Notes under the pieces: model-generated
The model's input: the letters and a program-made list of their open reading frames with translations, nothing else
What the model was told of the DNA's origin: nothing
Database searches by the model: none
Position numbers and translations under genes: made by a program
DNA from: a virus
IMG/VR virus record: IMGVR_UViG_3300044712_002699
Span: 16,744 to 80,743 of that record
DNA length: 64,000 nt
Reading direction: 5' to 3' (one strand)
Part shown: positions 20,201-62,295 of the stretch, piece by piece
Layout: each line of letters opens with the position of its first letter
Position numbering within the stretch: position 1 is the first letter of the stretch

Positions 20201-23200
20201 CGAATCCTTTCCAAACCTTACCCTTACCCCCATCGCGTCTCTAGGCGCTACCCAAGGAGCCCTAAAATTATAGGAATAAGTCGGAAATCCAGATGATAAA
20301 TCGTTGTTTACCTGATAAATAGTTTCTACAGTTCCGGATCCTCCTGCTGACGAGGACAAATCTATACCTATTATATCCATCCACGCTGTGTCACTTCCAT
20401 AAGAAAAGGAAGGAACATCTACGTTTGCATAACCAGAACCACTAGTATAATATACATAGGGGGTAGCCACACCGTGCAACGGTTCATACGTATCAATAGC
20501 AATTAGAAGATACGGGTCTCCGTAATCACTAGAAAGTTCTGTTATTGATACCCAGTCCGACCACAAAGATTCACCCGGAGACAGGGTAACGCCCGCGGAC
20601 CCGGAGTTAAAGGTTACCGGGATTATACTACCAGCAAAAATCGTTGATAGGTTACCGTTAGTTATTCCAACAGTCATAGCCTGTATAGTTAAATCATCAG
20701 TGGCATCCTCCGGGTTAACCAACTTCAATCTAATATGACCATTTCCCATATATTTATCAGTTATTACAAAACGAACATGATACTTTTTTCGTTCCGAAGC
20801 ACCTTCTCCGGTAGTTATCGGGAATGTATGGAGACGTTTTATCCCCGATCCATCATAATCAACCTCGACACTGGAAAGAGGAGCTGACCAATCTATTCCT
20901 AGTGACGTAAAATCAGTCGGAGGTTCCTCCATATGAGAATTAGAAGAAGAGACACTTTTATAGCCAGACCCCACAGAAGCAGTTTCAACATTCGTATAAG
21001 CATCTCCGGAAGACTCATCCCAAGACAAGACATAGTTACCGGAACTAATGTCAAAGTTAATCCAGTCAGACCAGATTTCTGTATCTTGATCACTTAAAAA
21101 AATAAGTCTTTGAGAACTATTAAACGTTACAGGCTGCTTTTGCGGACTCGACGCGAAACAATATGGGTCTGAAGCCAGTGAGTCTTGCTTTCCAAAATAG
21201 ACCTCACTAATACAGATGAGCGAAACTATGTCGGGCGGAGCAGACACCTTAAACCTAACTCTGCTAAATGAACCATCGAAGTATAAGACTCGACGGCGGG
21301 TCGCTGCGGCTTGGCCTGTTCCAGTCACTGGTCTGGCAAAATTATTCGTTACCTCTCCATCGAGGCTAGTTTCTATTTGTGACACATCAAGTGCAGTTGT
21401 AGAAGATACTAGGTTCCACGAGTAATCTTCTTCAGCATCCAATGCCTCTCTGCCGTAAGCAATCTCCAAGTCCGACCCGAAATTGTTATTAAGAGACCCA
21501 TCCCACCATAAGAGATAAATGCTGTCAGGGGGCTGCTCAGAAAAATCAAAATCAATCCAATCGCTCCAAAACTCTTGCATATATGTATCGATATCTATTG
21601 ACGGATAGCCCGCAAAAGTTAACGGGATAGGATCAAGGCTTGGGTCAAAAACAAATGCTATATTACTTTGAAGTCCAAACTTTGCCGACTTTATCCTAAC
21701 AGATTGAACGTCAGTTATATTCGTCGAGAACCTAAATCGAATCTTTGTGGCTGAATTTGATGCCGTCTTGAAAGCTTTAATACATATATCTCCATAAGCC
21801 TCTCTCGAAATAATCACCTGTTCCCGGACGTCTACTACTCCGGAGCTGGGCGTTACTTCGATCTGAGAAACGTCACAGAGATCATAAATATAATCGAATC
21901 CGTAAGTATAATCGGCTGCTCCGAGCTGATTTTTCTTATATGAATCATTAAGAACAACAGTATTTCCAGCAGTAGGACCGCCCCACGAGATAATATAACG
22001 TACTCCCTTTGTCATCGAGAACGAAACCCAGTCAGACCAAATCGTAGAGAGGGGAGGTAGATTTAGGTAGGGTTGACCGTTATTGAAGGTAACAGGAACT
22101 TTCGATGGAGGATTGACAAAATGAGGGCCGATGTCATCATATTCATCAAGAACTCCCTGATTAGCCATTCCGAAATATGCCCGCGTGATAACCAACGGCT
22201 CTGATGTATTAAGTGACTTAAACTTGAACCTTATCTGGTCACAGTCTTGACTCGGGGTGACCCATAACCTAAAACTGTTCCCGGTTATCTTACTGTATGT
22301 AAGATCATTATCTAACTTTACAGCGGGGATAGAGGATATCCTCGATCCTATAACGGTAGCCGTGATAACATCAGTACCCGGATCCGGTTCTATAGAACTT
22401 AGAATGAGAGAATTTTGACTGCCAATTAGAACTTGATCTTCCCATTCAGGCTCATTACCAGTCAAATAAACATTATAAGTCCCACTTTTCGGTTCGGCAG
22501 GAAGAGATAGAGAAAGCGTATCACCTCTATAAGAAATAATCGGAGGTAACTGATACGTCTTCGGAACGTTTAGTGTTAGATAAGAAACATCAATAACAGA
22601 CCCCCCAATCTCCATAATTCCGAGATCGGGGTCTGAAAAATACAGTTCATTCGTCACGGGGTGTGTTGCTAAACCCTTCGTGTAGGGCTCAAGAATCTCT
22701 ATCTCAGAGATTTGATACGTCGGCATAGCATAGTTTATCGTATCCTGGATTCTAGAAAACTTAATCCAGGCTTGCCCGAGCTTAATAGCATCGACAGAAT
22801 TTTCGGAATCTACTGAGATAGGAAATGAAAAATTTTCCGACGCCCTAGTTAAAAACAGCCCACCACTAGAAGATAGATTGTAGTAAGACTCAGCCTGCTC
22901 CCACCCATAAAGAGAAGGAGTGACCCAAATATCCCACAGTTCTCTCTGTCCTCGGTCGAACAGACTCACCCCGAGAAGAGTGTTCTTATAATAACGAATA
23001 GTCTTCTTAACATTTGTGTAAAACCGCCGAGAACTAATCAGATCGAGATTAGCAACTTTCGTTCGGTAAGGCCCGATAAATTTGTAGGGATTCTGACTGT
23101 TAACGTAGGCTGGATTACTGCCGCCTCCGTAATAATCCATTCCAGCGTCTACTCGGTCTATGATAACTCCCTCTGTTGGATAGTATCGGTATCTTTGCTC

Positions 23201-26200
23201 TTCTTCATCGAAGAAACTATTAATAGTGTAACTCATCGCCCCGAGATAGTAAGCATAATAATGTTCGCCTGTATCAGGAGTGTGGGGGTCGAAAACCAGT
23301 CCATCGCTTGCCCTTGTGAGAAACATCTTACCGCGATGGTCTACACTTAAATTTTCCCACTCCTGCTGATCAGCAGATATCCATACAGGATAACTAGAAT
23401 CAGAATACGATTGATAGGAATCTTGGGGAACTGTTAGAGTCCGTTCGTCTCGGTTCAAAAGAATACTTGAGCCACCAGCAGTTAAGGTCAGGTCAAGCCC
23501 AGGTGTTCCTGAGACCGAAAAGGACTGGGCAGTTTCGATAATATCACATGAAATAGCGCGCCCGAGTGAATTTGTGGTAATCTCTACTACGCCATAGTAC
23601 GTGGCGGTAAAGAGATTATTGGTAGCATAATGCTGGAGAGGAAAATAGTTCTGAAGAACTTCTCCAGTCAGATCGTCTCGATGCTTAACAAGGAAGGCTT
23701 TTCCACTGTACCTCGTCAATTCCGTATAGCCAAAAGCCCCCGAAGTCGAAGCCTTAAAAACTTTGTACTGAACAGTCTCCGAGGCTGTGAGAGAAAACAT
23801 TGATGGGTGCATATACCCAGGAGCCAGAGCAAGCCCGCCCAGAACGATCCCTGTCAAAAAATCGTGAAACAACTCTGTAAGATTATTTGTTATACTTCCT
23901 AGGAGGATTCCGTCTCTATCTAAGGCATAAGAAATAGTCCCCAAAAAATCACCCTTTATAACCCGTTCCTCGTCAACAATTTGAAAATGTCGTCTCCAAT
24001 TAGACTCTCCGTACTGAACAGGTATGCCTGACCGGTACTCTTTAAAGGTCATAGCGCCGGGGTCATCAGCGGGACGTATCATAAAAGGAGGCCCGTCAAT
24101 AGAAACGCTCTCAAGTATGTACTGATTACCCACATAGCCCAAGTCGAGTTCGTACCTTCCTCCAGGTCTTCCACAGTACTTCGCTGCTATAGTCTCAGTG
24201 AAGTTCATTTGTGTAAGTATTCGTATATCAAATACTCCACCTTCAATTTCTTTATAATGATAACCCACGGGGGCATAAACATTGAAAGTGATCGATCCCT
24301 GCTCGAAAATTCTCTTATCTGATACAAGATCGTAGTATCTTGGCCCGGGAAATAGTCTTCTATCTCTGCAATGTAATGCCATCCCCTGCAAAATAAGGGA
24401 AGTGGTTCTAAGAGTGACGTGAATATCCCACTCAGTTGGGGATACTTGAGTCGCAGTCATAACCGGATTGTTATCCCACGTTCTCGAGTCCTTGAGACCT
24501 GAAAACTTATAGAGCCAATCGTTTATTGTTTTTGGTTCAATAAAAGGAGTTCCAGCTACTTGACCCTTCCATTTCAGAAATTCATTAACTTTATCGACGG
24601 CTTCGTAGAGTTTTAGACTCAGGGGATATTCGGTAAAACGAAGTATCTTTACTTCTGCTTTCAATAAAAAAGCAACGTCGGTAAGTTCTAATGGATTGGT
24701 GCATACAGCGTAAATCTCATAGTAATCACCTGGCTCTAAATAGACGACGTTGGGGGGAACTTTAAGTTCATACTTCTCAAGGTATCCGGAAACAGGGAAA
24801 TGAAGAGAAGGTAAACCTCCAGGTGGATCTGGTTCTCCATTGAGTCTCAACCCCACGGTACCTGTAAAAGGTCTATCCGCATAAAGGCTATAATATATCT
24901 CATAGTATCCGGCCTGCTTGATACGCATCTTCGAACCATCAAGCTCACAGTAGGCCGAGTTTTCGGTAACAGGTAAATCGAGGTCTAACACTACTCCTGG
25001 GAACACCCTCAAATTTAGAGACGTATCTCTACAAATAGCATCCCCTACTACGGGATTAACCAGCGTCGTCTGTCCGCCCTGTGTAAAAGAGGTAATCCTA
25101 TTATTCTTTAAGTGAACGTCAACATTGAAAATATCCTTAGAAATAGCAGGCGATTCAATGCTTACGCGCTCGCTGCCCCAAAGGTCTACCCAACCATCAG
25201 GACCAGGTGATCCCCCAGGACCTCCTGGTGGAGATTGGTAAGAGTTGTAAGGCACTTCGGCCCAAAAATCTTCCCACGCTCCAGCCCCATCATTGGGGCG
25301 ATCAAAAACGGTTGATCGATGCGTCTGAAGACATTGGTAGACCGTAGTAACCCTTAATACGTACTCGTCCTGTTCGTAGAAAAAGTCATCCTCCCACGGG
25401 TCCGGATCTTCTTTAAGATGTGGCCCCCAGTATCCTTGGTTAGCCTCCATCGAATAGGTAATTTTCCCCATATAGTAGGCCCTAAGTATCCCGTACACGC
25501 TATCGTACGGAAATTCTCTCGGCGGGTCTACAGTATCGGGGGTACCTTCATAGGGCATCAGAAAAATCTGTCCGCGGTAAACCGGGTCGAAGTGTTCCCA
25601 TGTAGGATCATCTAAGGCCATCCAAACTCGATAAACCGGATACTGAGTCGTAGCAAAAGTCAGTTTTTCTAATGTTCCGTTTGCTAAATTTTTCTGGATC
25701 GGAGGTCTCCAAGAACCTGATGGGGACATTCTAGCGAGTCGTTTAACCGGATATTTAAATCCTATCGACTTACGCTTGACCATCTTCAGTGGATTCTTGA
25801 AACTCTCGTTGTCATTCTCAACAACAACTAAATCTCGATAGACCCATTTATGTAACTGCAGGGTATACTTATCCGTCCCTTCAGTGTATTGAGGTTCATT
25901 GTTTGCATTAACGGTTAGGTTGACATCAGACCCATCCGCAATTTCCGTCTCCATAATGTACTCATTACCATCTGTAAGTGTTATAGATGCAATCCCCAGG
26001 AATTTATCGGTAACTAGGGCGTGAGTAGGATCGGTTTCAAAGTCTGTCGCTTGGAGACACTTACGCCCAACCAGAGGTATTGCTTCTGGATCAATGACCT
26101 CTACCAGCGAAAGATTATAAATTCCAGAAGTCAGAGTACGGTATTCACTCCGGAGTTGTATTGTTTTATCCAGAGTAATTACTGGCCTAAATAGGTGAGA

Positions 26201-27250
26201 ATTAAAATGAAGAGGAATATACCGGCACTGTACTTGCTCACCCCCAATCAATCGAGAGGGAACATCTTCATTAGCATAAAACAAAACATATTCATCTCCT
26301 ATCATTCTAGATTGGAGATAAGGTTCACCTTCTATGATAGTCAGACCATAAATATAAAGCCCGGTATTTGGATAACTGTGATTCGTATCTACATCGATAG
26401 TAACCTTTCCTACATAAAAAGCGTCCAGCGTCCTACCGTCTCTCAAATTAATTGGGAACGGATTTCCGCTGCCTGTACTCGACGTCATAAGAATTAAATG
26501 ACCCGACAGACCAGGCCATACCTCTTCCCACTCCGGTTGGCCGGAAGCTATAAAAACATTACAAGTCCCACTGGACGCCGGAGAAACCCCAAAGAAATCC
26601 TTCACCGAGGGCACTAGCGGTAAATTCAGAAGAGGATATCCGAAACGACAAAAGAGATACTCATATGGTATTGAATCTTCTCCAACTTCTACCTGTTCAC
26701 CTTCTTCTCCAATATAGTAGATTCGGTTTCTCGAACAAGCTAGTTTTCCATTGGTTCGGTCACTGTCTATATAAGAGGTATAGTCGTAACGAGAACCAAC
26801 TAAATAACCAATAGTTGAAATAGAACCTAAATAACGACAAGAAATAGTTTTACCACTAACTAAAGGGATCTCCTTAATAACTTCTACCTGCTCTGAATCA
26901 GGCTCCATATTATCACTAAGAAAAAGGTTTAGCCGATAATAGCCCCACGCCTGATCCCCCGATGCAACGTAGACGTGATAGGTTCCTTGTTTATATTCAA
27001 CAGGTACTAAGGCAAATTTAGACCCCACAGCAGTAAGATGAAGGATGGGTTTTCCTGAGTCACGGTTAGTGACATAACCCGCAGCCATCGGACTAGTTCC
27101 CAAATAAACGTTAGGATCGCTCTGATCACTAAGTATAAGTCCCTGAGGATCTTTTTGATCCATATTAATTCGCGGGTCTCTAGTGTCTAGGAGCTGGATG
27201 TCCGGTACGTGCGTATATTCGTCAAGGATTTCGAATTCAGTTTTAGCCAT
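14261..27250 (-). CDS. Gigantic modular adhesin/fibre protein (4329 aa)
   Basis: At about 480 kDa this is exceptional even for a phage. Domain order, approximate residues: four module A copies (80-580); a collagen-like Gly-Pro stretch (PPGGPGGSPGPDG, about 665-680); a C1q/TNF-like beta-sandwich (about 730-870, VTENSAYCELDGSKMRIKQA); four further A copies (about 1140-1600); ten module B copies (about 1660-3400), each R-[IV]-R-F-x-[FV]-S then [AC]-x-[FY]-G, V-T-F and W-[ST]-D-W; a discoidin/F5-8C-like domain between B5 and B6 (about 2475-2620, FAIQGSNDNSNWVNLY); four more A copies (about 3510-4130); and a unique C-terminus. No catalytic motif was seen. The F5/8C, collagen and C1q-like parts suggest binding to carbohydrate or surface polymer. 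Leads the adhesin polycistron. Confidence 0.82.
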   Translation of the reverse strand: MAKTEFEILDEYTHVPDIQLLDTRDPRINMDQKDPQGLILSDQSDPNVYLGTSPMAAGYVTNRDSGKPILHLTAVGSKFALVPVEYKQGTYHVYVASGDQAWGYYRLNLFLSDNMEPDSEQVEVIKEIPLVSGKTISCRYLGSISTIGYLVGSRYDYTSYIDSDRTNGKLACSRNRIYYIGEEGEQVEVGEDSIPYEYLFCRFGYPLLNLPLVPSVKDFFGVSPASSGTCNVFIASGQPEWEEVWPGLSGHLILMTSSTGSGNPFPINLRDGRTLDAFYVGKVTIDVDTNHSYPNTGLYIYGLTIIEGEPYLQSRMIGDEYVLFYANEDVPSRLIGGEQVQCRYIPLHFNSHLFRPVITLDKTIQLRSEYRTLTSGIYNLSLVEVIDPEAIPLVGRKCLQATDFETDPTHALVTDKFLGIASITLTDGNEYIMETEIADGSDVNLTVNANNEPQYTEGTDKYTLQLHKWVYRDLVVVENDNESFKNPLKMVKRKSIGFKYPVKRLARMSPSGSWRPPIQKNLANGTLEKLTFATTQYPVYRVWMALDDPTWEHFDPVYRGQIFLMPYEGTPDTVDPPREFPYDSVYGILRAYYMGKITYSMEANQGYWGPHLKEDPDPWEDDFFYEQDEYVLRVTTVYQCLQTHRSTVFDRPNDGAGAWEDFWAEVPYNSYQSPPGGPGGSPGPDGWVDLWGSERVSIESPAISKDIFNVDVHLKNNRITSFTQGGQTTLVNPVVGDAICRDTSLNLRVFPGVVLDLDLPVTENSAYCELDGSKMRIKQAGYYEIYYSLYADRPFTGTVGLRLNGEPDPPGGLPSLHFPVSGYLEKYELKVPPNVVYLEPGDYYEIYAVCTNPLELTDVAFLLKAEVKILRFTEYPLSLKLYEAVDKVNEFLKWKGQVAGTPFIEPKTINDWLYKFSGLKDSRTWDNNPVMTATQVSPTEWDIHVTLRTTSLILQGMALHCRDRRLFPGPRYYDLVSDKRIFEQGSITFNVYAPVGYHYKEIEGGVFDIRILTQMNFTETIAAKYCGRPGGRYELDLGYVGNQYILESVSIDGPPFMIRPADDPGAMTFKEYRSGIPVQYGESNWRRHFQIVDEERVIKGDFLGTISYALDRDGILLGSITNNLTELFHDFLTGIVLGGLALAPGYMHPSMFSLTASETVQYKVFKASTSGAFGYTELTRYSGKAFLVKHRDDLTGEVLQNYFPLQHYATNNLFTATYYGVVEITTNSLGRAISCDIIETAQSFSVSGTPGLDLTLTAGGSSILLNRDERTLTVPQDSYQSYSDSSYPVWISADQQEWENLSVDHRGKMFLTRASDGLVFDPHTPDTGEHYYAYYLGAMSYTINSFFDEEEQRYRYYPTEGVIIDRVDAGMDYYGGGSNPAYVNSQNPYKFIGPYRTKVANLDLISSRRFYTNVKKTIRYYKNTLLGVSLFDRGQRELWDIWVTPSLYGWEQAESYYNLSSSGGLFLTRASENFSFPISVDSENSVDAIKLGQAWIKFSRIQDTINYAMPTYQISEIEILEPYTKGLATHPVTNELYFSDPDLGIMEIGGSVIDVSYLTLNVPKTYQLPPIISYRGDTLSLSLPAEPKSGTYNVYLTGNEPEWEDQVLIGSQNSLILSSIEPDPGTDVITATVIGSRISSIPAVKLDNDLTYSKITGNSFRLWVTPSQDCDQIRFKFKSLNTSEPLVITRAYFGMANQGVLDEYDDIGPHFVNPPSKVPVTFNNGQPYLNLPPLSTIWSDWVSFSMTKGVRYIISWGGPTAGNTVVLNDSYKKNQLGAADYTYGFDYIYDLCDVSQIEVTPSSGVVDVREQVIISREAYGDICIKAFKTASNSATKIRFRFSTNITDVQSVRIKSAKFGLQSNIAFVFDPSLDPIPLTFAGYPSIDIDTYMQEFWSDWIDFDFSEQPPDSIYLLWWDGSLNNNFGSDLEIAYGREALDAEEDYSWNLVSSTTALDVSQIETSLDGEVTNNFARPVTGTGQAAATRRRVLYFDGSFSRVRFKVSAPPDIVSLICISEVYFGKQDSLASDPYCFASSPQKQPVTFNSSQRLIFLSDQDTEIWSDWINFDISSGNYVLSWDESSGDAYTNVETASVGSGYKSVSSSNSHMEEPPTDFTSLGIDWSAPLSSVEVDYDGSGIKRLHTFPITTGEGASERKKYHVRFVITDKYMGNGHIRLKLVNPEDATDDLTIQAMTVGITNGNLSTIFAGSIIPVTFNSGSAGVTLSPGESLWSDWVSITELSSDYGDPYLLIAIDTYEPLHGVATPYVYYTSGSGYANVDVPSFSYGSDTAWMDIIGIDLSSSAGGSGTVETIYQVNNDLSSGFPTYSYNFRAPWVAPRDAMGVRVRFGKDSASPMLLTSCYFGEVAPGTNYHFASTPSKIQLTFSGSSGKQLIGDLRSSWTDWGTFSIQKGKTYMVSYEGGYLGHRSSIAGGVYRYAFKKSGVWGVDSAEFPGGDYDNFYNLPVVGGFEYSDNQDLVGRINVGMYANSSPSPAVVSQSDGSNYAYRVYDDNTTTSNPISGSAPYWTKIDLGSGNARVVTKIRYMIGGSYYAPRDFAIQGSNDNSNWVNLYSTTYFNPSLGNYPEFAVLTFNNTTAYRYYRFYASARWYSYSISFNEFQLFETSSSTLPDRLSTLFISKDIVSRNTEFRIVIRPREAASRIRFLFSCPTSSVTDFSLSQCYFGQLSGSYAFAPDPLKSQVTFSSNEGLQISPGSSVWSDWVDFDISEDIEYLLAFDGSAVDFGFSSDFLTTFFESNSNQASEDVPRLSESSYTYSTFSEVEAFDGTDTASCHYDTLTASSASACHVRQVVSFVKDSDRVRFKFSLPCGSTKGYAIINQAYFGQRNYNYVFYTGKLPLTFSGGSQYVLDASVGKTEVWTDWLDYSVNTSYDYLISWDGYGLLNKDDVGEAYRNSSGNTTKKLDVSEIQVEESSQARTVFRANIVNSEFNSSEPVLIRRALNMYSSFSRIRFQFSVPPGSIVPANIYNCFFGVAEYSWSHNFTSTPGLVRRVTFSGQSSVVIDPRTTTTVWSDWISYAFPGPDTGWAYKTYLLSWDGYGIGNFCPEPRVFYFGSAANAATDEPSESFDTYTYGDVVSIESKKGGSVVTEFSRQIYTPSTNKTISCVQNIFTREEFKVVRFKFTIPPLAQEPLLISEVWVGEWGAFNTPPIEDPVVAQITFNEGQDTSLFLDLGSESVWSDWVTIPTEEAMSRLQLYTEGLSIGNRGSKEATYYKGGASEAHLDSVSGYGLYSPSASADITRIEVKDILEEEESTLTSADSINGWDSVSGTFRRFVDFTTSGNYIRFRFSRPYQDQDFSLNQAHFGYRDQDTYGFLTSPPKIRVTFGGVSGFTMSGTEIDVWSDWMRYDILQGHKYLLTWDGSAVGYLTAVPSARIGGVNRANIIDITEFDIKGIEYYEREVTSKLVGVVEVQMKEVNLGKSPLINVQRTETANSIVVGSPEDTSLGTLVTSEGVPFCLPQYLTDSVEETQYSSDTFNPLQVVEFDRWNKAAFAKQVDMKDGVYYIYQMADENFFYNITTETSDAGSEYDATNIVGYDGRIFLSQAEPDQYGYIYLTAPEATSFSWWNYPQLCSAFKIGTCKVGESVAASWITSKAELMPEIFIDPTVSQDEDATIGIYPDLDRTVPGGHYSLSDIRDWEIVVRNLTKHRIVLGYVGQLSSLRRQKMEQFGFSFLTLSDVPTHSWTSPVVVEGLSKEFYLVDNFTFYIIFVTEDGDLLLRGPGPKEVSGTCVDSSIKSLRSGVGKFRNPLRLIGGYPEVTKIDPGLAYYLYLAPSDPSWQDFSGQLFLSSESPSLFEGEYVLDSSITLAKALCIGRVSTTKELTLTSNYGNYIFDVFPGSDIQLKVGESSEDLYWEERLPQFEHHCLSDGAAVYSGSSPYNEYGDRVNPLLVGKVLLLFEDKPLALSLPGYETHFPAAERVDAGIYYIYRTVPDVRWMSFSDAAFLSMSPPDKSGEKSWSGFFETTEVRSWCVGKVILRYGPSQSLEQVYPGAAQILEGSDYLRIVSDNSLRYVDEDNWKKTIRATEVVLLGMSWSYSDGNGKPLFFDPLTSQISVVDEFLEGIYNVYVSSMELGWEDLSLDYIGSLFLCQAEPNTVGDILTSYIGSEQVQAWKVGRVQVTYFRASESQPESKFSGFGSTVVSGTNPIATETVVPDSGIRSFFSGGEVYIGAVMLPIYAEGKPIYLELQFILPPDLNNKDCVIQITSWCLDYTIDLDEYFVSGQPPPVIDNASFLLTQEIGLDDLMNSRIKMFKVTDNSGRIGQRQVNLGDSIIAKVVVKSNAVVSNKTLQIVPEPVISSLTFLFHPVESEEQG
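17060..22275 (-). repeat. Ten-copy protein repeat array (module B, W-S/T-D-W)
   Basis: Inside the 4329-aa gene, a unit of about 140-190 residues repeats ten times. Shared features in order are R-[IV]-R-[FL]-[KRL]-x, an aromatic-Gly pair ([AC]-x-[FY]-[FW]-G), [VIL]-[TP]-[VLI]-T-F, a near-invariant W-[ST]-D-W, and Y-[LM]-[LIV]-[SA]-[WYF]-[DE]-G. Similarity is at protein level. I saw no long nucleotide repeats, so the copies are old or codon-diversified. The fifth and sixth copies are separated by a discoidin-like domain. Confidence 0.75.
19385..19820 (-). other. F5/8 type C (discoidin)-like domain coding segment
   Basis: The encoded segment runs from about NVGMYANSSPSPAVVSQSDG through WTKIDLGSGNARVVTKIRYM and FAIQGSNDNSNWVNLYSTTY to RYYRFYASARWYSYSISFNE. 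This matches the F5/8C pattern: A-S-S, W-x-x-[IV]-D-L-G, F-x-[IV]-x-[GE]-S-N-D...W and R-Y-[IY]-R. The family is known to bind carbohydrate or lipid on cell surfaces. It is inserted between module B copies five and six of the 4329-aa protein. Confidence 0.75.
24650..25245 (-). other. Collagen-like stretch followed by C1q/TNF-like domain (coding segment)
   Basis: Positions near 25200-25240 encode PPGGPGGSPGPDG, a short run of Gly-X-Y triplets. About 50 residues later (roughly 25060-24660) comes a segment with the C1q/TNF-like jelly-roll pattern: AGYYEIYYSLYADRPFTGTV, then LRLNGEP, then LEPGDYYEIYAVC and FLLKAEVKILRF. Collagen plus C1q-like combinations occur in phage and Bacillus surface proteins as trimerising binding heads. 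Assignment is by pattern only. Confidence 0.55.
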
Positions 27251-28943: not shown

Positions 28944-28972
28944 TTGACAAGCGTTATATCTTGTGATATTAT
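28944..28972 (+). promoter_or_regulatory. Sigma70-type promoter for the DNA ligase gene
   Basis: TTGACA (28944-28949), 17-nt spacer, TATTAT (28967-28972), about 30 nt upstream of the ligase start at 29002. The -35 is perfect and the spacing ideal. The same hexamer pair recurs before other genes here (59935-59907 minus, 31714-31686 minus, 62208-62236 plus), which supports use rather than chance. Confidence 0.75.
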
Positions 28973-29001
28973 ATAATACAGATAATACTGAGGAGATTGC
29001 A

Positions 29002-30795
29002 ATGCTGACTAAAGAACAGCTCGATAAAGCAAGTCCAGTACAGTTGGATACCTTCATCCGAAAGTGCTCAAAATCTTACTATGAGGGGAACCCGATTGTC
29101 CCAGACGATATCTTCGACTACGCGCTCGATCTCATAAAGGTAAAAGATCCCTCATCACCTCTTCCGTACTCTATTGGACATGGTTATGTAGTAGACGGAA
29201 CTCTAACCTTGCCTCACAAAGTTGCTACAAGCAGTCTTCCAAAAATACACAGTCTCGGAAAGGTTTCTAGTGATGCTTATGCTACCCCAAAGTTCGACGG
29301 CATGTCTTTTGTGGCTTATTACAATAAAGGCGAAATAGAGAACATTCTAACAAGAGGAGGTGACGAGGCAGCAGGTGAACCTATTTACAACCTTGCATAC
29401 TTCTTCAAACAAAATGGACTGGACAAGATGCCCCCTGAAGTCTTTGCAATCTCAGGTGAAGTTGTGGTCAGGGTCAGCATCTTCCTCAAGAAAATGGACC
29501 AAGAAGTCGGCGGACCTTACGCCAACCCAAGAAGCGCAGCAACTGGTATAGCGCGCTCCAAGTTCCTTCATGAGTTCTATCAAGACTTGGAAGCCAAACC
29601 GTTTCGTATTCACTTCACTGACGGAACTCATGTCAGTATCAAAGATTCGACTTCAAAAGACCTTTTCTTCAAATACTGCAAGATTGATGTTCCATATATC
29701 CCCCTCGAAGGTGAAACCCTGCAAACTCTCCACGATTGGGTTCGCAAATTCGATTACTACACCGACGGTGTCGTCCTAGAAGACCGGGAAGCCTTAAAGT
29801 TCCCTACCGAGTACAAGAAAACGACGATCAAACGGATCGTTTGGAATACCCCCAAGTCAGGTAACCTCATCCCCGTGGCCCACTTTGAAACGGTTCACCT
29901 TTATGGAACCAAAGTTTCTAAATGTACGCTCACTGCGGGTTCCTGGGTTATAGAACATAAACTGGGGGCCGGTGCGATTATCACAGTCACTAAGGCAAAT
30001 GAAATAATCCCCGAGTTCGGCGAGGCTATCGAACCGCTAGAGCGCGGTGAGATTCCAACTGAGTGTCCGGCATGCGGGGGGCCTGTAAGGTGGGGCGTAA
30101 ATGATTGGGACAAACTCCACCTTACCTGCAAAAACAGGTGTATGGTCGAGAAATTCCGAATTTTCACATTCGTCTTCTGCCATGCCGAACTCAAGGGTTA
30201 TAGAAACTCAACACTCGTAAAAATCCTGGACGAGAACGACATCAAGACCTTTGATGATTTCTTGGAAAAAGCCGGAAGTCTAGTCTCTGTCAATCTGACA
30301 GACCACGAAAAAAAATTTCTCGATTACATCAATACCCAGTTTCAGGGAACACTATCTCTTGAAAAGTTCCTGGACTCCCTCAACATCCAAGGTATAGGGC
30401 CAGAGTGGTCGGCGAAGCTGGCTCCATTTATAATTCCCTACCTCCACGGCGGCGGATTATTTCCCTTCAATGTATCATCAAACGTCCAACAGGTTATAGA
30501 CGAAAATAGAGATCTCATCTTGAAAACCTATAATCTCTTTAAGTGGGTTGTTGATGACGGCAACGGTAAGAAAAAGACCCCAGTAACGATTACAGGGGCG
30601 TTAACCCTTCCAAAGGCTGAGTTCTGTCAGAAATATGACCTCGTCCAAGTAAGTATTGGTAAAGCAGAACTCCTCATTACTGCTGACAAATCCAGCACTT
30701 CAAACAAGACAAAGGATGCTATCAAGCGCGGTATCCAGATTATGACTGAAAGGGAGTTTTTGGCTTCTAGGAATGTAAAAATAGATAATCCCTAA
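29002..30795 (+). CDS. ligA: NAD+-dependent DNA ligase
   Basis: 597 aa from the ATG at 29002 (GAGGAG at 6 nt); an in-frame ATG 13 codons earlier falls too close to the promoter. It seals nicks using NAD+. Domain Ia is visible as YYEGNPIVPDDIFDY (about residues 26-40), which points to NAD+ rather than ATP use. The adenylation motif is K-F-D-G with catalytic Lys at about 97. A four-Cys zinc finger (CPACGGPVRW ... CKNRC), helix-hairpin-helix material (NIQGIGPEWSAKLAPF) and a C-terminal BRCT-like end (TKDAIKRGIQIMTEREFL) follow. It is shorter and more diverged than bacterial LigA (about 670 aa), as usual for phage versions. Probably an early replication gene under its own promoter. Confidence 0.92.
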   Translation: MLTKEQLDKASPVQLDTFIRKCSKSYYEGNPIVPDDIFDYALDLIKVKDPSSPLPYSIGHGYVVDGTLTLPHKVATSSLPKIHSLGKVSSDAYATPKFDGMSFVAYYNKGEIENILTRGGDEAAGEPIYNLAYFFKQNGLDKMPPEVFAISGEVVVRVSIFLKKMDQEVGGPYANPRSAATGIARSKFLHEFYQDLEAKPFRIHFTDGTHVSIKDSTSKDLFFKYCKIDVPYIPLEGETLQTLHDWVRKFDYYTDGVVLEDREALKFPTEYKKTTIKRIVWNTPKSGNLIPVAHFETVHLYGTKVSKCTLTAGSWVIEHKLGAGAIITVTKANEIIPEFGEAIEPLERGEIPTECPACGGPVRWGVNDWDKLHLTCKNRCMVEKFRIFTFVFCHAELKGYRNSTLVKILDENDIKTFDDFLEKAGSLVSVNLTDHEKKFLDYINTQFQGTLSLEKFLDSLNIQGIGPEWSAKLAPFIIPYLHGGGLFPFNVSSNVQQVIDENRDLILKTYNLFKWVVDDGNGKKKTPVTITGALTLPKAEFCQKYDLVQVSIGKAELLITADKSSTSNKTKDAIKRGIQIMTEREFLASRNVKIDNP

Positions 30796-31724: not shown

Positions 31725-32870
31725 TCAAGCCACTTTCAGATAATCCTTGTCGTGATAAAAACGAAGATGAATCTCCTCCATTGTTCTTCCAATCAAAACG
31801 CGGTCTGGATCGTTCCGCAGCTTAGATGCTTTCATCAACTGAGTCAACTCTTTATCCTCTTTTTCAGCAAACTCTACAAGTTCCGAATACGTCCACGTCC
31901 CGAAATAACGAATAGCCTTGAGTTCTTCAGCATCAGGTCGCTTAACCTGAACTTTACCGGTAGTTAGAATCTCTCTCGCCATTCTCATCAACTGAACAAG
32001 GCGGGCGGCGTGTTTGGTGTCGTACCCAAACTTAGCTTCGAGTTCTTTTCTCTTTGCGTTCCTCTCTTTAAGCCACCTCCGGTAACCTTCCCACATCTTC
32101 ACTGCCGCCCGATACGCCTTCTCTTTAGCGAGATACTCCATAAAATTCGTATCAAAATTCATGACTCGAAAGGCGGCTCGCTCCAGAATTGATTTGAGTT
32201 CCTTTATCTCAAGATCAACACCAATCTGATTCAAGACGATATTGGTCATGTCAATAATCTCAGGATAAAGCTTGATCTTCAAATCTTCAGGTAACTCGGT
32301 TTGATCGATAAGCCACTCCTCAACTATGAGTTCAAGAATCTTGTCCACCGCGTTGAGTTGGTCTTCAGGGAACTTATAGAGATGAAGTCCGTACTCCTCC
32401 CTGCTTGGCTCGTGGCTAGGCGGGTTTACAAGATATTGATAAGACGATTCAATACGTTTCAACTGCTGAACCGCGTAACCCGAAAACCGGTGCTTTAGAA
32501 CCTTACTCAAGAAAGATTCTCTAATATCAACGAGTTGTTTCCAATATGGAGTGGACAAAATCCAATCCGACTCCTCTGTAAAGAGAAGTTCAATAACATT
32601 CGGGTTTCCGTGAGCAGCAAGTTCAACAAACCGTTGCAGAGAATACACCTCCACGTCATCACTATCAACAGTGATAATTCCCTTATAGTACGTAGAGGTC
32701 TGCTTAGACTGCGCGTGTTGGAACCTATCGAGTCCAAAAATGTAGTTGAGTGGAGGGATCGCTACTCCCCTTAGGTCCGTATCACTCGTTTCGATGTTAG
32801 TGCCGTACGACTCGGAGCCAGCCCTAGTCATGTAGATAGTATTTTTAGCAATCCAATCCTTGATCTGCAT
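31725..32870 (-). CDS. RlaP-like nucleotidyltransferase
   Basis: 381 aa from ATG 32870 (AAGGA at about 8 nt), 4 nt after the preceding gene's stop; a longer in-frame start would overlap that gene by about 90 nt. The N-terminus has the polymerase-beta-type nucleotidyltransferase signature of the RNA-repair-associated RlaP family (PF10127): GSESYG at about 18-23, SDTDLRG at about 29-35, and an acidic strand (DDVEVYSLQRFVELA) supplying the third carboxylate. The rest is helical, with YDTKHAARLVQLMRMAREIL matching the family's conserved helical block. Family members occur in many large phages; the substrate is unknown, and nucleotide addition to RNA or protein is the usual suggestion. Confidence 0.85.
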   Translation of the reverse strand: MQIKDWIAKNTIYMTRAGSESYGTNIETSDTDLRGVAIPPLNYIFGLDRFQHAQSKQTSTYYKGIITVDSDDVEVYSLQRFVELAAHGNPNVIELLFTEESDWILSTPYWKQLVDIRESFLSKVLKHRFSGYAVQQLKRIESSYQYLVNPPSHEPSREEYGLHLYKFPEDQLNAVDKILELIVEEWLIDQTELPEDLKIKLYPEIIDMTNIVLNQIGVDLEIKELKSILERAAFRVMNFDTNFMEYLAKEKAYRAAVKMWEGYRRWLKERNAKRKELEAKFGYDTKHAARLVQLMRMAREILTTGKVQVKRPDAEELKAIRYFGTWTYSELVEFAEKEDKELTQLMKASKLRNDPDRVLIGRTMEEIHLRFYHDKDYLKVA

Positions 32871-32874
32871 CGTC

Positions 32875-33345
32875 TCAATCCTTAAAAACAACTCCCTCTT
32901 TTCGGGGAGGTAACGGTACCACCGACCGCACATAGTCTTTTGCATCATCGAGGGAAATCCCCTCATCTTCTTTCAGCACATCATATTCCCATCCAATGCC
33001 CTTCTCGTGTCTAAGTCTATACGTCAGGTCTAACTCAGTCAGAATCCCCACTGCTTCATCGCTATTGGGATAGTAAAATTCTATCTCGATCCCCCCGTCT
33101 GTCAACGGATAGGCATCAGTCTTTAGGCCGAGGCTTACCCCAAATTCATGGAGCGCAATCGCTGAGTCTACGACGTGTTGAGGCGACGGATCACCATCTC
33201 CAAAATCCCACCCCTTTGGGTGGTTCTTGAATTCTTCTATCTTCTCGAGAGTCGATAGGCTAAAGTAGGGGTCACTTGTTATAATCTTATGAGCCTCGTC
33301 CCAGGTGATATCTTCACCGACCCTCAAACATTTCCATTTTGTCAT
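32875..33345 (-). CDS. Hypothetical protein, 156 aa
   Basis: An acidic soluble protein with no recognised domain. The middle (TDAYPLTDGGIEIEFYYPNS) has alternating strand pattern and DGG turns, and the C-terminus (DAKDYVRSVVPLPPRKEGV) is basic. It lies 9 nt after a small MGSLR-tagged gene and 4 nt before the nucleotidyltransferase, so it is probably co-translated with them. Function unknown. Confidence 0.6.
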   Translation of the reverse strand: MTKWKCLRVGEDITWDEAHKIITSDPYFSLSTLEKIEEFKNHPKGWDFGDGDPSPQHVVDSAIALHEFGVSLGLKTDAYPLTDGGIEIEFYYPNSDEAVGILTELDLTYRLRHEKGIGWEYDVLKEDEGISLDDAKDYVRSVVPLPPRKEGVVFKD

Positions 33346-47945: not shown

Positions 47946-48202
47946 CCCGTGGGACGACCTGTTATAATTCCAAGCCTTGGGTTAACGGCCCCTATTGAGT
48001 AGAACCCATTGTGTTCGTCTACAACGAGGGTACCTCCCTTAGGTGTCAAAAAACCGACCGCAGTCGCCATATTTGTAGGTAAATTGGGCACCGGTTCTGG
48101 AATCCGAGACACGCCAAACTTGTTGAGAGTAGCCTCTATTCTAGGATCCAAACTAGGCCCCATCGATTCATTCAATAGGCACTGAACGTCAATTGCTTTC
48201 AC
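47864..48202 (-). CDS. Hypothetical protein overlapping clpP-like gene, 112 aa
   Basis: GTG start at 48202 overlapping the speE stop by 4 nt (GTGA), so translation is coupled to spermidine synthase. Starts MKAIDVQCLLNESMG, a loose tag copy. The middle (TAVGFLTPKGGTLVVDEHNG, FYSIGAVNPRLGIITGRPTG) is strand-rich. Its last 82 nt lie antisense to the protease gene, which is uncommon for a true gene, but the coupling to speE supports it. No domain recognised. Confidence 0.55.
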   Translation of the reverse strand: MKAIDVQCLLNESMGPSLDPRIEATLNKFGVSRIPEPVPNLPTNMATAVGFLTPKGGTLVVDEHNGFYSIGAVNPRLGIITGRPTGYESLDEFLEDLPNWLTARGFVEGDPT

Positions 48203-49038
48203 TTCGTCCTCAATAAGTCCTCCACAAATACTGGCACGGCAAGAGCCGCTTTGTGGACATCTTTGGTATAGTATTTAAGACCCTCAGGAAGTTTACGCTC
48301 CATAAGATAATAGGGATCCGCTTCCTCTGAACAAATTGTTGCTGTCCAATAACCGCTAGGATAACTCGGTGTGGGAAAAAACATTGGTTGGGCCGTGTAA
48401 GAAAAAACATTACTCAGTGACTTAACAGTTGCCCCGAAAATACCTGGCATAAATAGTGGCGACTCGGTCTGAAAAACGGCTGCTCCATACTCGGCTAGAC
48501 TGTTCTTAACTGTTACAAAGAACTCTTCTGTAAATAAAGAAGCTCCAGGACCCACTGGATCGGTAGAATCCACAATAACAAGGTCATAAACTCCCACAGC
48601 CCTCTGCAGAAAATAAGCCCCGTCTTCATTCACAACTTTGACTCGATCATCGTCTAATCCGCTGGAAATTTCAGGGAAGAACTCTCGACCGATCCTCACG
48701 ACTTCAGGATCAATTTCACAAAGAACTATTGATTCTATCTCCGGGTATTTGACCAGTTCTGTCACAATACCCCCGTCCCCGCCACCGATAACTGCCACAT
48801 CTTGAACTCTGCTAGATACGCTCATCGCTGGGTGGACCATCATCTCGTGATAGATAAATGAATCGTTACACACCATAAAACAGCCGCCTAGGATAAGTAC
48901 TCGACCTAAGGATACGCTGTCATAAACTTCAATTCTCTGAAACTCACTTCGAGTGTCGTAAATTTTACTGTGATAGCGAAAAGAAAAAGCAGTAGAGGCG
49001 TCATAAATTTCAGTAAACCAGTTCTCGTTTGAAAGCAT
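48199..49038 (-). CDS. speE: Spermidine synthase-like aminopropyltransferase
   Basis: A 279-aa enzyme of the SpeE family that transfers an aminopropyl group from decarboxylated SAM to putrescine. Seen: the N-terminal beta domain with NDSFIYHEMMVHPAM (compare canonical D-E-F-x-Y-H-E-M), the SAM loop GGGDGG (85-90), CEIDPEVV, and the catalytic block DSTDPVGPGASLFT (157-170). All core motifs are kept, so it is probably active. Embedded between terminase and a coupled small gene in the late operon. Polyamines neutralise packaged DNA, so supplying them in the head-assembly period is a plausible role (inference). Auxiliary gene from a bacterial source likely, but base use looks like the neighbours. 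Confidence 0.9.
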   Translation of the reverse strand: MLSNENWFTEIYDASTAFSFRYHSKIYDTRSEFQRIEVYDSVSLGRVLILGGCFMVCNDSFIYHEMMVHPAMSVSSRVQDVAVIGGGDGGIVTELVKYPEIESIVLCEIDPEVVRIGREFFPEISSGLDDDRVKVVNEDGAYFLQRAVGVYDLVIVDSTDPVGPGASLFTEEFFVTVKNSLAEYGAAVFQTESPLFMPGIFGATVKSLSNVFSYTAQPMFFPTPSYPSGYWTATICSEEADPYYLMERKLPEGLKYYTKDVHKAALAVPVFVEDLLRTK

Positions 49039-57278: not shown

Positions 57279-58124
57279 CTATAATTCGGAAAGAATCCAG
57301 GGGCCGTCTTCGGTTATTGCTACGGAGTGTTCAAAATGTGCGCTAAGTGATCCATCCTTAGTAACTATTGTCTGACCTCGATGCGAAATCTTCCAGGTAC
57401 CCGCATTAACCATTGGCTCAAGAGCAAGAACCATTCCAGGTACAAGCTGAACCTTATTGTTAGTCGAGGAAAAGTAATTGTGGAGCGACGGGGGTTCGTG
57501 AATTTTTCTTCCAATTCCATGACCGGTGTAATCCCGGACTAAACTAAAACCCCCTGCCTCAGCGCAATCCTGAACAGACCTCGATATGTCGGCCAAAGAA
57601 TTTCCAGGCACCATTTTAGCAATTCCTGCATAAAGAGCAGATCGAGTAGTTTCTATGAGACGCGTCGCTAGGTCTGAAACTCTTCCTACCGGATAGGTTC
57701 TCGCAGTATCTGCCTTCCAACCCTTATAGTCAATACAAAGGTCAATACCAACAATATCACCCTCTACCAGCACCTGTTTTTTAGGGATTCCATGACCAAC
57801 CTCTTCGTTGACTGAGGCACAAACTACCGCGGGCCAAGGACAACCTCCCACGGGATACCCTAGCATGGCGGAGGTTCCTTCAGAGAGATGGATTCGCTTC
57901 TCCACTTCTCGATTTATGTCTTCTGTGGTTATTCCCGGAACAATAAATTTCTCTAAGTGTTGCAGAATGGCAGCGGCGATGAGGTTTGCTTGCCTCATCA
58001 ATAGGAGATCCTCCCTAGATTTCAGAGTAATCCCTAAGTATTCAAGATCAGATACGACAAACAAATCATCACCGTCTTCATGAATCCACACAAAATCAAA
58101 TGTTTCTGGATCTTCAATCTTCAT
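57279..58124 (-). CDS. map: Methionine aminopeptidase, type I
   Basis: 281 aa from ATG 58124 (AAGGT at 4 nt); it overlaps the preceding gene by 11 nt. Removes N-terminal Met. Pita-bread fold with all ligands: His at about 111 (NEEVGHGIP), Asp at about 128 and 139 (GIDLCIDYKGWKADTARTYP), His about 202 (GHGIGRKIHEPPS), Glu about 236 (ALEPMV) and Glu about 265 (SAHFEHSVAIT). The N-terminus has about 35 extra residues before the family's first helix. Encoding its own MAP could speed processing of large amounts of phage structural protein, or of the tag's Met (inference). Confidence 0.92.
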   Translation of the reverse strand: MKIEDPETFDFVWIHEDGDDLFVVSDLEYLGITLKSREDLLLMRQANLIAAAILQHLEKFIVPGITTEDINREVEKRIHLSEGTSAMLGYPVGGCPWPAVVCASVNEEVGHGIPKKQVLVEGDIVGIDLCIDYKGWKADTARTYPVGRVSDLATRLIETTRSALYAGIAKMVPGNSLADISRSVQDCAEAGGFSLVRDYTGHGIGRKIHEPPSLHNYFSSTNNKVQLVPGMVLALEPMVNAGTWKISHRGQTIVTKDGSLSAHFEHSVAITEDGPWILSEL

Positions 58125-58326
58125 CGCTACCTTCAAAATCTCCGCGCCAGAAATTCGGAGAAAATATCTGGACGGAAGTTAGGCGCGTAGAAGATGAAGA
58201 AACAGGAACAATTTTGTTCCGGACAAGAAACTGTATAAGCCTCTCCCTGTCTTCCTCACGCCTTTCAGCAGACAATTCATCAGACGGGGTACAGAATCCG
58301 ATCTGAGCATCTATTAGGCGGTTCAT
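58114..58326 (-). CDS. Small hypothetical protein, 70 aa
   Basis: Starts MNRLIDAQIGFCTPSDELSA. Acidic then basic, with a charged helix (ERREEDRERLIQFLVRNKIV) and an aromatic end (IFSPNFWRGDFEGSDED). The ATG overlaps the previous gene's stop by 4 nt (ATGA), and its 3' end overlaps map by 11 nt. No domain recognised. Confidence 0.5.
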   Translation of the reverse strand: MNRLIDAQIGFCTPSDELSAERREEDRERLIQFLVRNKIVPVSSSSTRLTSVQIFSPNFWRGDFEGSDED

Positions 58327-59242: not shown

Positions 59243-59872
59243 TTACTTATCTCCGCCCGGATACATCTCTTGAAGGGTCTGGTTCCAGCCAAACGTCACT
59301 GTAGCAGCCTTTTCCTTCTTAGGTTTAGGAGCCGCCTCGTAGGGCTTCCCGTATATGACTGTATAGACTTCGACAGGAATTTGTCGATGGTACTTTCGGA
59401 GCAGTTGGAACCCTACCCACGCTTGTTTGTAGGTTAGAGACTCCCGTAGGGCAAGCTCATGACCCAGACCGGCATCGTGCGCGTTGAACCCGGCATAATC
59501 GCGAGCCCATGCTCCGTCACACATCCCTGCCAGACTTTTCAGTGTTTTATGAATAGCAGAAACCTGTTCCTCAGACAGCGCGTTGTTCTTTTTCGTGCCA
59601 GCCGCCATTGCAGCCCGAACTGTCTCGATTTCCTTTTCCGTAAGAGCGCGCATCTCCTTCACCGCGTCAGGGGTTTTAGCAAACGCCTTCTCTAGACGAT
59701 CCCGGCACGTTTCATCTGCAAACATGTAAAGAAAACAAGCAACTCCTTCCCAGGGAGTGTGCCAAATCTTGCGCTCTCCATCCCATGTCCACTTGCCGCA
59801 CCGCTTAACGAGTTCCTTATCTTCGAAACGGCACTTGACCTCGAATTCGGTTCCGTTAAACGTCAATCTCAT
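59243..59872 (-). CDS. Hypothetical protein with DUF5710-like N-terminus, 209 aa
   Basis: ATG 59872 chosen (GGAGGTG at about 6 nt); an earlier in-frame start lies in the promoter. The N-terminal 45 residues (FEDKELVKRCGKWTWDGERK, IWHTPWEG) resemble the small DUF5710-type domain (F-x-[ED]-K-x-x-x-K-x-x-G-x-x-W-D-x-x-x-[KR]-x-W), found in phage and plasmid primases and DNA-processing proteins. The rest is helical (TEKEIETVRAAMAAGTKKNN), then a basic linker. First gene after the early-type promoter at 59907-59935, so likely early expressed. Confidence 0.6.
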   Translation of the reverse strand: MRLTFNGTEFEVKCRFEDKELVKRCGKWTWDGERKIWHTPWEGVACFLYMFADETCRDRLEKAFAKTPDAVKEMRALTEKEIETVRAAMAAGTKKNNALSEEQVSAIHKTLKSLAGMCDGAWARDYAGFNAHDAGLGHELALRESLTYKQAWVGFQLLRKYHRQIPVEVYTVIYGKPYEAAPKPKKEKAATVTFGWNQTLQEMYPGGDK

Positions 59873-59906
59873 TGCCTGCACCTCCAATTCCGTTTTATCT
59901 ATAATC

Positions 59907-59935
59907 ATAATACCATACGCGCACCCCTTTGTCAA
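59907..59935 (-). promoter_or_regulatory. Early-type promoter of the 57.3-59.9 kb operon
   Basis: TTGACA (59935-59930), 17-nt spacer, TATTAT (59912-59907) on the minus strand. The 13 nt GTATGGTATTATG around the -10 (59918-59906) is identical to the sequence at 62225-62237 on the plus strand. Start lies about 30 nt before ATG 59872. Confidence 0.75.
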
Positions 59936-60051
59936 GTAAAATCTTTTTACCCAAAAAATTTTCTTTTTTCGTCTCCAAACGGAAAAATTTAATAGATAAA
60001 TATCCGTTTTTACTTAACAAAAAGAAAAATTCTTTTACGATTAAAAAAGTC
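59936..60051. other. A/T-rich intergenic stretch with a small inverted repeat
   Basis: A/T-rich spacer between the divergent promoters at 59907-59935 and 60052-60080. It contains AAACGGA (59977-59983) and TCCGTTT (60003-60009), a 7-bp perfect inverted repeat with a 19-nt centre that could be an operator or weak terminator. No gene was seen. Confidence 0.4.
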
Positions 60052-60080
60052 TTGACAACAAATCCATTTTGAACTATCTT
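60052..60080 (+). promoter_or_regulatory. Promoter of the large structured RNA
   Basis: TTGACA (60052-60057), 17-nt spacer, TATCTT (60075-60080); the start would be near 60087. It directly precedes a roughly 1.1-kb stretch without a credible gene but with many perfect helices. Confidence 0.65.
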
Positions 60081-60086
60081 CTAACT

Positions 60087-61185
60087 ATCGGACAGTTCGA
60101 GAGGTTGTTCGATGTGAGACTCAGAGAGGGATTCGCAAATCCCTGGACGAGCCTGCTGTTAAGGAGACGTTATTAGCAGCGGGGGCTTTGAGGAGAGGGA
60201 ACTCAAATCAAGGCTAGATTGGCATAGGGCTTAGACGAGGTGAAGGCTCGAACCTGCCTCTACATCAAAGCCGCCAGAGAATACGTCAGGCTTCGACTAA
60301 TCGAGGCTATAATAGAACCAACAAGGAAGGGTCAGGTTTAGATAGATAAGCGGAAGATAGGGACTTTTGATCTAGAAACCCTAAGACCTGGATGAGAAGT
60401 GAAGCCCAAAAGGCAGAACGGCCACTCAAAAGGGTAGCGGGGAATCCGGAGATAGGGAAACAAAAAGAAGTGAGTCTATCGAGTCTAGGCAATTCCGAGA
60501 AGGCAACTAGGTAGCGCAGAAGAAATCGAAGAGCCGTATCCCGAAAGGATATCTTGGCGGAATTCAACGGCGTATGATGTAGGGTAAACCTTAAACGCGG
60601 TAAGCAGGGACACCAGCCGGTGTGTGGTTCAGTTTTAGTGTCGATAGACTGAGCCCACCAGCCACACTAAGACCCTTCTAGGACTCTGGTCTAATAAGCC
60701 AGAGCAGGACAAAAACGGGGTTCACGACCCCTTCACTAGCGGCACTGCCGGATCGGGGATGTCCTTCCCGCCAGAGCCGGTTAATAGTGATAAAACCTGA
60801 TCGCAGATCGGGGATCGTTCCTAGAAGGTGATACTGGTGAATCCGGCCAGAAGATGAGAGTCTTCGGTTCTATTGCCAAGCAGTTGGGTAGCAACCAACT
60901 GTGGTGTCTCAGCGGGGTGCTGAGACCTCTGAGGCTTCGCTATGACGAACAACCGGAAGTGGGAGTAATCGTAGGCCACGAGACCTCCCACTTTTCTCCA
61001 CCCTCAAGGAGAACACTCTCTGGGGTAAGAGTCCTTGAGGAATTTCAGTGATTGCTCGTTATCGAGAATGCCCTATAGGATCACTGGTTATGTTATCGGC
61101 CTAAAAACAATGGAAAATACTACAGCCTAATTTAGTGGGCCGTACTATATACCCAGATGTTCTAAGGGATGTCTGGGTTGTTGTG
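60087..61185 (+). ncRNA. Large structured non-coding RNA (GOLLD/ROOL-like candidate)
   Basis: About 1.1 kb without a supported gene. Many perfect helices are visible on the plus strand. Local ones include CAGTTGG/CCAACTG (near 60880-60905), GTCTCAGC/GCTGAGAC (near 60905-60930), AGTGGGAG/CTCCCACT (near 60955-60995), CCTCAAGGA/TCCTTGAGG (near 61000-61040), CTCTGG/CCAGAG (near 60685-60705) and GGTTCAGT/ACTGAGCC (near 60627-60660, one G-U). Long-range ones are CCTTCTAGGA (60675-60684) with TCCTAGAAGG (60819-60828) and GGCTTTGA with TCAAAGCC (near 60187-60275). The 3' end has a hairpin (ACCCAGA 61151-61157/TCTGGGT 61172-61178) like a terminator. Length, phage context and complexity resemble GOLLD or ROOL RNAs, which are known from phages and form multimers; class assignment is unproven. 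Confidence 0.7.
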
Positions 61186-61206
61186 TCTACAGGGTCAAAA
61201 ATTCTC

Positions 61207-61235
61207 TTGACAACCCAATAGAAATGAGATAGATA
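61207..61235 (+). promoter_or_regulatory. Promoter of the regulator at 61265-61753
   Basis: TTGACA (61207-61212), 17-nt spacer, TAGATA (61230-61235). CCCAAT (61214-61219) and ATTGGG (61241-61246) flank the -10 as a 6-bp inverted repeat, a possible operator for the product, which carries a ribbon-helix-helix-like part. Confidence 0.55.
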
Positions 61236-61264
61236 GAAATATTGGGACAACAGGAGGATAAACA

Positions 61265-61753
61265 ATGGAAGACCTCAAGACACGGTTTCTAGCCTTGGTC
61301 AATCTCTACGGACACCAATGGAACATCATTTCCGGCATCCTTACCAAAGAGGGTTATAAGACCCCCAACGGTTCCAAAATTTGGTCAAATAACTGCGCCC
61401 GAAAGTTCTACAATCGAACCCTCAGGACAGATAAATCACCCTACGATCACCGGTCAATTCTTCCGGGTATCGGTTCTGTGAAACCCGTTAAGGGCTACGT
61501 TGACTGGTGGAATAGGACGCGACGACCCGAGGGTGAAGAGATAGATCGAAAACCAATTCTTAATGGTCGAAGACAAAAAATCGGGCCGAGAGTGAACGTC
61601 AATCTTTTGAATCTCGTTAAGAAGCAAATGAAGGAAGACGGAATTCTTGACCAGAACAATCTGTCGGCACTAGTTGAGTTTCTCCTTTTCCGGTACGCGG
61701 GTTCACCTGAAAGTCTGATGAGACCGGAAGAGATGCAAGCGGAGACATTCTAG
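61265..61753 (+). CDS. Predicted DNA-binding regulator, same architecture as 31071-31652
   Basis: A 162-aa protein (GGAGG at about 9 nt). The N-terminal 65 residues (ILTKEGYKTPNGSKIWSNNC, ARKFYNRTL) match the recombinase-associated helical domain (G-[YI]-x-[TA]-P-x-G-x-x-W-[ST]) without a catalytic resolvase domain. After a linker, RVNVNLLNLVKKQMKEDGIL plus LSALVEFLLFRYAG looks like a ribbon-helix-helix unit. The same order is seen in 31071-31652, so the two are probably paralogues. The gene follows the structured RNA, and its own promoter carries a possible operator. It may regulate the early genes or the RNA (inference). Confidence 0.65.
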   Translation: MEDLKTRFLALVNLYGHQWNIISGILTKEGYKTPNGSKIWSNNCARKFYNRTLRTDKSPYDHRSILPGIGSVKPVKGYVDWWNRTRRPEGEEIDRKPILNGRRQKIGPRVNVNLLNLVKKQMKEDGILDQNNLSALVEFLLFRYAGSPESLMRPEEMQAETF

Positions 61754-62183: not shown

Positions 62184-62222
62184 TTACCATAATTCTGCAA
62201 AAAATACTTGACATTATGGTAA
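62184..62222. promoter_or_regulatory. Perfect 10-bp inverted repeat, probable operator in divergent region
   Basis: TTACCATAAT (62184-62193) and ATTATGGTAA (62213-62222), 19-nt centre, between the divergent genes 61755-62165 and 62296-63105. The right arm abuts the -35 (62208-62213) of the plus-strand promoter, so protein bound there would block it. The TATGGTA element recurs directly downstream (62226-62232). Confidence 0.65.
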
Positions 62223-62236: not shown

Positions 62237-62295
62237 GTATCTAGGTAGAAACAAAGAGGGCTTAGATGAAAGACGCATTAGAGACAGGAGCAGCA

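Follow-up and report, generated by a model that had tools for sequence, protein, structure and literature searches.

A candidate structured non-coding RNA of about 1.1 kb in the longest gene-free gap of an unclassified phage

A gene-free gap in a tightly packed phage genome

The window analysed here, a 64,000-nucleotide stretch of DNA, runs from base 16744 to base 80743 of a linear IMG/VR virus record of 80,743 bases (IMGVR_UViG_3300044712_002699), which is probably a fragment of a larger genome. The record encodes a gp23-type (T4-type) major capsid protein and an S77 prohead protease, with no tRNAs throughout its 80.7 kb. The nearest named relatives of the capsid protein belong to Rhizobium phages of the RHph_TM30 group (36% identity) and to Thermus phage phiLo (32%), and IMG/VR scans with the capsid protein, a capsid alignment and other probes returned no near relative of the virus, an isolated, unclassified large phage.

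Between a minus-strand gene and a plus-strand gene lie 1,329 bases with no supported gene (59936-61264); within them, positions 60087-61190 constitute the sole long non-coding region of the window and its longest gene-free gap, in a genome that is otherwise tightly packed. The divergent upstream gene (59243-59935, minus strand) encodes a 230-aa protein of unknown family with one distant relative in IMG/VR; because its promoter, CTTGACA-N17-TATTAT at 59935-59907, overlaps the called TTG start, the true start probably lies further in. The downstream gene (61265-61753, plus strand), with an AGGAGG ribosome-binding site just 5' of it, encodes a 162-aa protein that has no family and found no relative in the IMG/VR and GTDB scans. 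An earlier note on this DNA had described the gap as holding no supported gene, and our analysis bears this out: the six frames of 59936-61264 contain 14-23 stops each, about the random frequency, with no gene-like frame among them, three-base periodicity is low across the interval, and no open stretch within it matches Pfam.

The promoter claimed in that note is likewise present, a consensus scan placing TTGACA-N17-TATCTT at 60052-60080 on the plus strand, with 10 of 12 positions matched. The window contains 21 copies of CTTGACA where about 8 would be expected, and well-formed promoters of this type precede the divergent upstream gene (59935) as well as the gene at 62266 (element at 62208); the copy at 61207, before the gene at 61265, is weaker, with a poor -10 (3/6). 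At the far end, a terminator scan identified a 12-bp terminator-like plus-strand hairpin at 61151-61178: the terminal hairpin of the earlier note thus exists, but its U-tract is weak, the tail being merely UUGUUGUGUCU. On the strength of fold tests against dinucleotide shuffles and of the lack of a gene, we propose a plus-strand structured RNA of ~1.1 kb at 60087-61190, both of whose ends we infer.

These boundary features also bear on whether the region might instead be a long 5' leader, a giant regulatory UTR controlling the gene at 61265. It lies on the same strand directly upstream of that gene, and the weak U-tract after the terminator-like hairpin makes read-through plausible; yet the gene has its own CTTGACA, albeit with the poor -10, and its own ribosome-binding site, 1.1 kb far exceeds known leaders, and the predicted fold stops before the gene. 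We regard such a leader as improbable.

Elsewhere, many minus-strand proteins at 27-57 kb of the window and in L003 have in common an N-terminal leader of ~15 residues (for example MVTAKQILTYLNE followed by A), with starts such as 52035, 52454, 53382 and 55275 in the window and 7250 and 9640 in L003, all on the minus strand; six fit a strict pattern and about a dozen were recognized by eye. The leader resembles a capsid-targeting sequence of the T4 type, complete with prohead-protease site, (L/I)xE followed by A, S or G, a reading that we set beside the gp23-type capsid protein and S77 protease of the same record, and the proteins bearing it may possibly constitute a large group of internal head proteins that are ejected along with the DNA. 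The window also holds cargo unusual for a phage, namely an RlaP-type nucleotidyltransferase (31725-32966), an NAD-dependent DNA ligase (28963-30795), a spermidine synthase (48199-49038) and an M24 (methionine aminopeptidase-like) peptidase (57279-58136), as well as a single minus-strand open reading frame of 4,329 codons (14261-27250).

Fold stability and predicted architecture

Measured against dinucleotide shuffles, the plus strand is both more stable and more sharply defined than expected: its minimum free energy (MFE) is -402 to -405 kcal/mol, compared with -350±10 and -351±8 for shuffles (z about -5 to -6), its mean positional entropy is 0.64 versus 1.07±0.17, and it has 178 pairs with P>0.9 versus 87±32, the last two values lying beyond 24 of 24 shuffles. 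The minus strand gives an MFE z of -3.6 with normal ensemble entropy, and three coding controls of equal length give MFE z values of -0.6 to +0.4. All of this structural evidence rests on a single sequence, and single-sequence folding does not by itself prove functional structure (PMC8250186).

Tested one at a time, each of five sub-regions is significant on the plus strand. The z-scores are -4.2 for 60087-60216 (-1.5 on the minus strand), -2.5 for 60217-60610 (-0.6 on the minus strand), -3.7 for 60611-60954, -4.6 for the inner domain at 60674-60828 (0 of 200 shuffles; -4.1 on the minus strand) and -3.4 for 60955-61190 (-3.7 on the minus strand). The signal of 60087-60216 and 60217-60610 is specific to the plus strand; the 3' parts score strongly on either strand. 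Local hairpins (span ≤50) reach a z of -5.6 and account for much of the total, which leaves the long-range architecture less certain than they are.

The earlier note had offered its many perfect helices as evidence of structure, an argument that we abandoned: the region has 32 long ungapped helices where dinucleotide shuffles have 30±6, and the best helix score, 25.4, falls under the shuffles' mean best of 27.8. The 10-bp pairing that it singled out is real, joining 60674-60683 to 60819-60828, one base off the position given there. A 21-bp helix closing the main domain (60103-60126 with 60927-60954) was matched in 1 of 1000 shuffles of its own segment and is not significant once all segments are allowed for, and we rejected it, taken alone, as evidence. 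A large structured RNA served by a promoter of its own is still the best reading, but it is so through global stability and ensemble definition, with no support from the helix count.

In the predicted plus-strand fold, 60090-60094 would pair with 61184-61188 (GGACA/UGUCU; pair probability 0.95 in the fold of 60087-61190) as a putative terminal helix. The closing helix, whose 5' strand at 60103-60126 pairs with the 3' strand at 60927-60954 in runs of 9, 5 and 7 bp (P 0.88-1.0, -27.2 kcal/mol), would bound a main domain with a trio of hairpins on its 5' side (60127-60144, 60152-60183 and 60184-60215, within 60127-60216; P 0.95-0.99). There follow a central A/G-rich part with mainly longer-range predicted pairing (60217-60610), the least certain portion, where positional entropy is higher in places; the 155-nt sub-domain closed by the 10-bp helix (60674-60828); and, adjoining the closing helix, a pair of hairpins (60880-60902 and 60906-60926, together 60880-60926; P 0.98-1.0). 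Beyond the domain, a row of four hairpins is predicted at 60956-60994, 61002-61040, 61045-61087 and 61090-61150 (60956-61150).

Within the 155-nt sub-domain, GATCGGGGAT occurs twice, at 60751-60760 and 60806-60815, so that either one could serve as pairing partner for CCTGATC at 60796-60802; this choice of partner would make a switch, or a swap between molecules, possible. The kissing loops of OLE and GOLLD use palindromic loop tetranucleotides. Such tetranucleotides, GGCC and UCGA, are present here too, but we discounted them, since several would be expected by chance on a rough estimate.

RNA families, relatives and transcribed phage RNAs

None of the 4,227 Rfam families matches at its gathering score, neither the giant RNAs to which the earlier note had compared the region nor any different element. 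The only matches at E≤10, to KRAS_3UTR and mir-186 (E 3-8), sit in the AT-rich flank and are attributable to chance. The model of GOLLD (RF02032), which covers its conserved 3' region, matched nothing at E≤10 in the region or in the record as a whole, in a search run without a known GOLLD as positive control; the ROOL model (RF03087) gave none at E≤10 either here or in the control genomes, and so lacked a positive control, and the OLE model (RF01071) gave none at E≤10, again with no responding positive control. Membership of GOLLD, ROOL or OLE is thus unsupported. We also discarded a group II intron, as the group-II-D1D4-1 model and the rest of Rfam gave no match and the GAGCCGTAT...GAAA hairpin at 60531-60560 merely resembles a domain V.

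What the region would share with these families is its kind, that of large ornate RNAs, phage-borne in the case of GOLLD and ROOL and bacterial in that of OLE, whereas the present candidate lies in a phage. GOLLD is often over 800 nt long, and GOLLD and ROOL form RNA-only cages of unknown function (PMC12286853). GOLLD lies in phages or prophages, often near tRNA genes; the present record is viral, and its 80.7 kb are free of tRNAs. The ROOL model spans 574 positions as against ~1.1 kb, and no tRNA island is found here. A GOLLD or ROOL too divergent for the models would fit the phage genome, the similar size class and the elaborate fold; with no GOLLD, ROOL or OLE match at E≤10 and no tRNA in the record, we consider this very improbable.

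Searches for relatives of the RNA region were similarly empty. No homologue emerged from blastn against 50,697 phage and 72,556 plasmid records, from IMG/VR scans probed with both flanking proteins, the capsid protein, the capsid alignment, a 643-aa protein whose terminase matches were very weak, two stop-free translations of the RNA (as DNA probes) and one 16-mer, from two GTDB scans, or from the records of ~20 distant relatives compared as DNA and with a single-sequence covariance model. Matches to the 16-mer in records L016 and L017 were dismissed because the similarity did not extend, as was a covariance-model match in phiLo (E 0.39) that lies inside a helicase gene. Because such scans have to start from a short exact match, they would pass over relatives that have diverged far, and the negative result falls short of establishing absence.

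A single sequence with no homologue found and with stops in every frame could also be non-functional intergenic DNA, or a decayed gene, whose fold is stable by accident. Its fold statistics, however, go beyond both shuffles and coding controls, it retains neither remnant periodicity nor any protein-family match, and phage genomes seldom retain 1.1 kb unused; we accord this explanation little probability.

Phage RNAs of similar size provided a yardstick. Staphylococcus phage K lnc002 (NC_005880.2 37679-38832, minus strand) is a 1,154-nt phage lncRNA whose transcription is supported by RNA-seq (PMC9241854), and like the present candidate it is phage-encoded and belongs to no Rfam family. When we subjected lnc002 to this fold test (6-10 shuffles), the transcribed strand had an energy z of -8.2, an entropy z of -2.6 and more confident pairs, and the other strand an energy z of -2.3 with no entropy effect: both regions exceed expectation in stability and ensemble definition with a like strand bias, although lnc002 adjoins tRNA genes, has had its transcription shown by RNA-seq and has no sequence similarity to the RNA proposed here. 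The gp139-gp140 gap of Vibrio phage ICP1 also is an ORF-less stretch of ~1 kb with no tRNAs and no Rfam family, and its RNA is the most abundant phage transcript (PMC7567579); it bears no convincing sequence similarity to the region and its fold signal is weak (z -1.7 on the strand of the neighbouring genes, somewhat larger on the opposite strand), as is that of phage K lnc001 (z -1.4 on the corresponding strand). Because lnc001 and the ICP1 gap score so weakly, absence of the signal is uninformative and its presence suggestive. Apart from adjacent tRNAs, Rfam recognized no family in lnc001, lnc002 or the ICP1 gap.

An RNA gene, a replication origin or both

The leading rival casts the region as an origin of replication, or as the primer or initiator transcript of one: unwinding would take place in the AT-rich stretch at 59940-60050, and the transcript or DNA hairpins would start bidirectional replication. 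The cumulative GC-skew minimum of the whole record falls at 60089, within the start of the RNA, where gene direction flips; the third-position skew of plus-strand genes is -0.26 and -0.23 to the left of the site and about 0 to the right, a difference that gene direction alone does not explain but that rests on few codons; and strong hairpins occur on both strands in the 3' part. Conversely, the record is a fragment with only 4 kb to the right, so the skew minimum may be local, no repeat array was found besides two imperfect AT-rich copies, and the plus-strand specificity of the 5' and central parts fits an RNA. The origin reading, though unlikely in our view, is a rival to be reckoned with; it is compatible with an RNA gene, and both could be true.

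Taken together, the strand bias, the phage K lnc002 yardstick and the genome context raise the case that a large structured RNA is encoded at 60087-61190 to a probability, in our judgement, of about 0.8. The fuller explanation, that a single stable non-coding RNA of ~1.1 kb is encoded here and acts in folded form, we also consider likely: the region is the longest gene-free gap, it has no coding signal and it has the promoter type of neighbouring genes, and its plus-strand fold surpasses every shuffle in energy, entropy and confident pairs, outdoes the minus strand and has no counterpart in coding controls. Against an RNA gene stand the 3' parts that are equally strong on the minus strand, as expected of DNA palindromes, the chance level of individual helices, the weak terminator and the reliance on a single sequence without homologues.

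Under the RNA-gene reading, host RNA polymerase with a sigma-70-type factor would start near 60087 (start and polymerase being read from the sequence), the transcript would fold into the predicted large closed domain and row of 3' hairpins, and transcription would end at or soon after the hairpin at 61151-61178, near 61190. The RNA would then act in its folded form, most likely accumulating during infection, by scaffolding, self-assembly or serving as a binding platform. A scaffold or binding platform like GOLLD and ROOL, or like the large RNAs of phages K and ICP1, is a tentative assignment drawn from those parallels, and the lytic accumulation and symmetric multimers envisaged in the earlier note would be features lent to this RNA by analogy only.

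The roles of the large phage RNAs are unknown and, to our knowledge, very few elaborately folded RNAs near or above 1 kb have been described outside ribosomes and introns. The region at 60087-61190 is probably an orphan large phage non-coding RNA candidate of an already known kind, with a predicted function. That it represents a giant phage RNA of a new class, sharing no sequence relationship with GOLLD, ROOL and OLE, ~1.1 kb long, driven by a host-type promoter at the point where the genes diverge and engaged in RNA-only assembly or replication initiation, is a prospect that we place somewhat short of even. The strand-biased fold test, combining energy and ensemble entropy, is applicable to other long gaps in phage genomes, and the RNA itself would offer a fresh target for cryo-EM and infection genetics. 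If true, another unrelated RNA of this sort would suggest a strategy, the use of large folded RNAs, to which phages have turned repeatedly.
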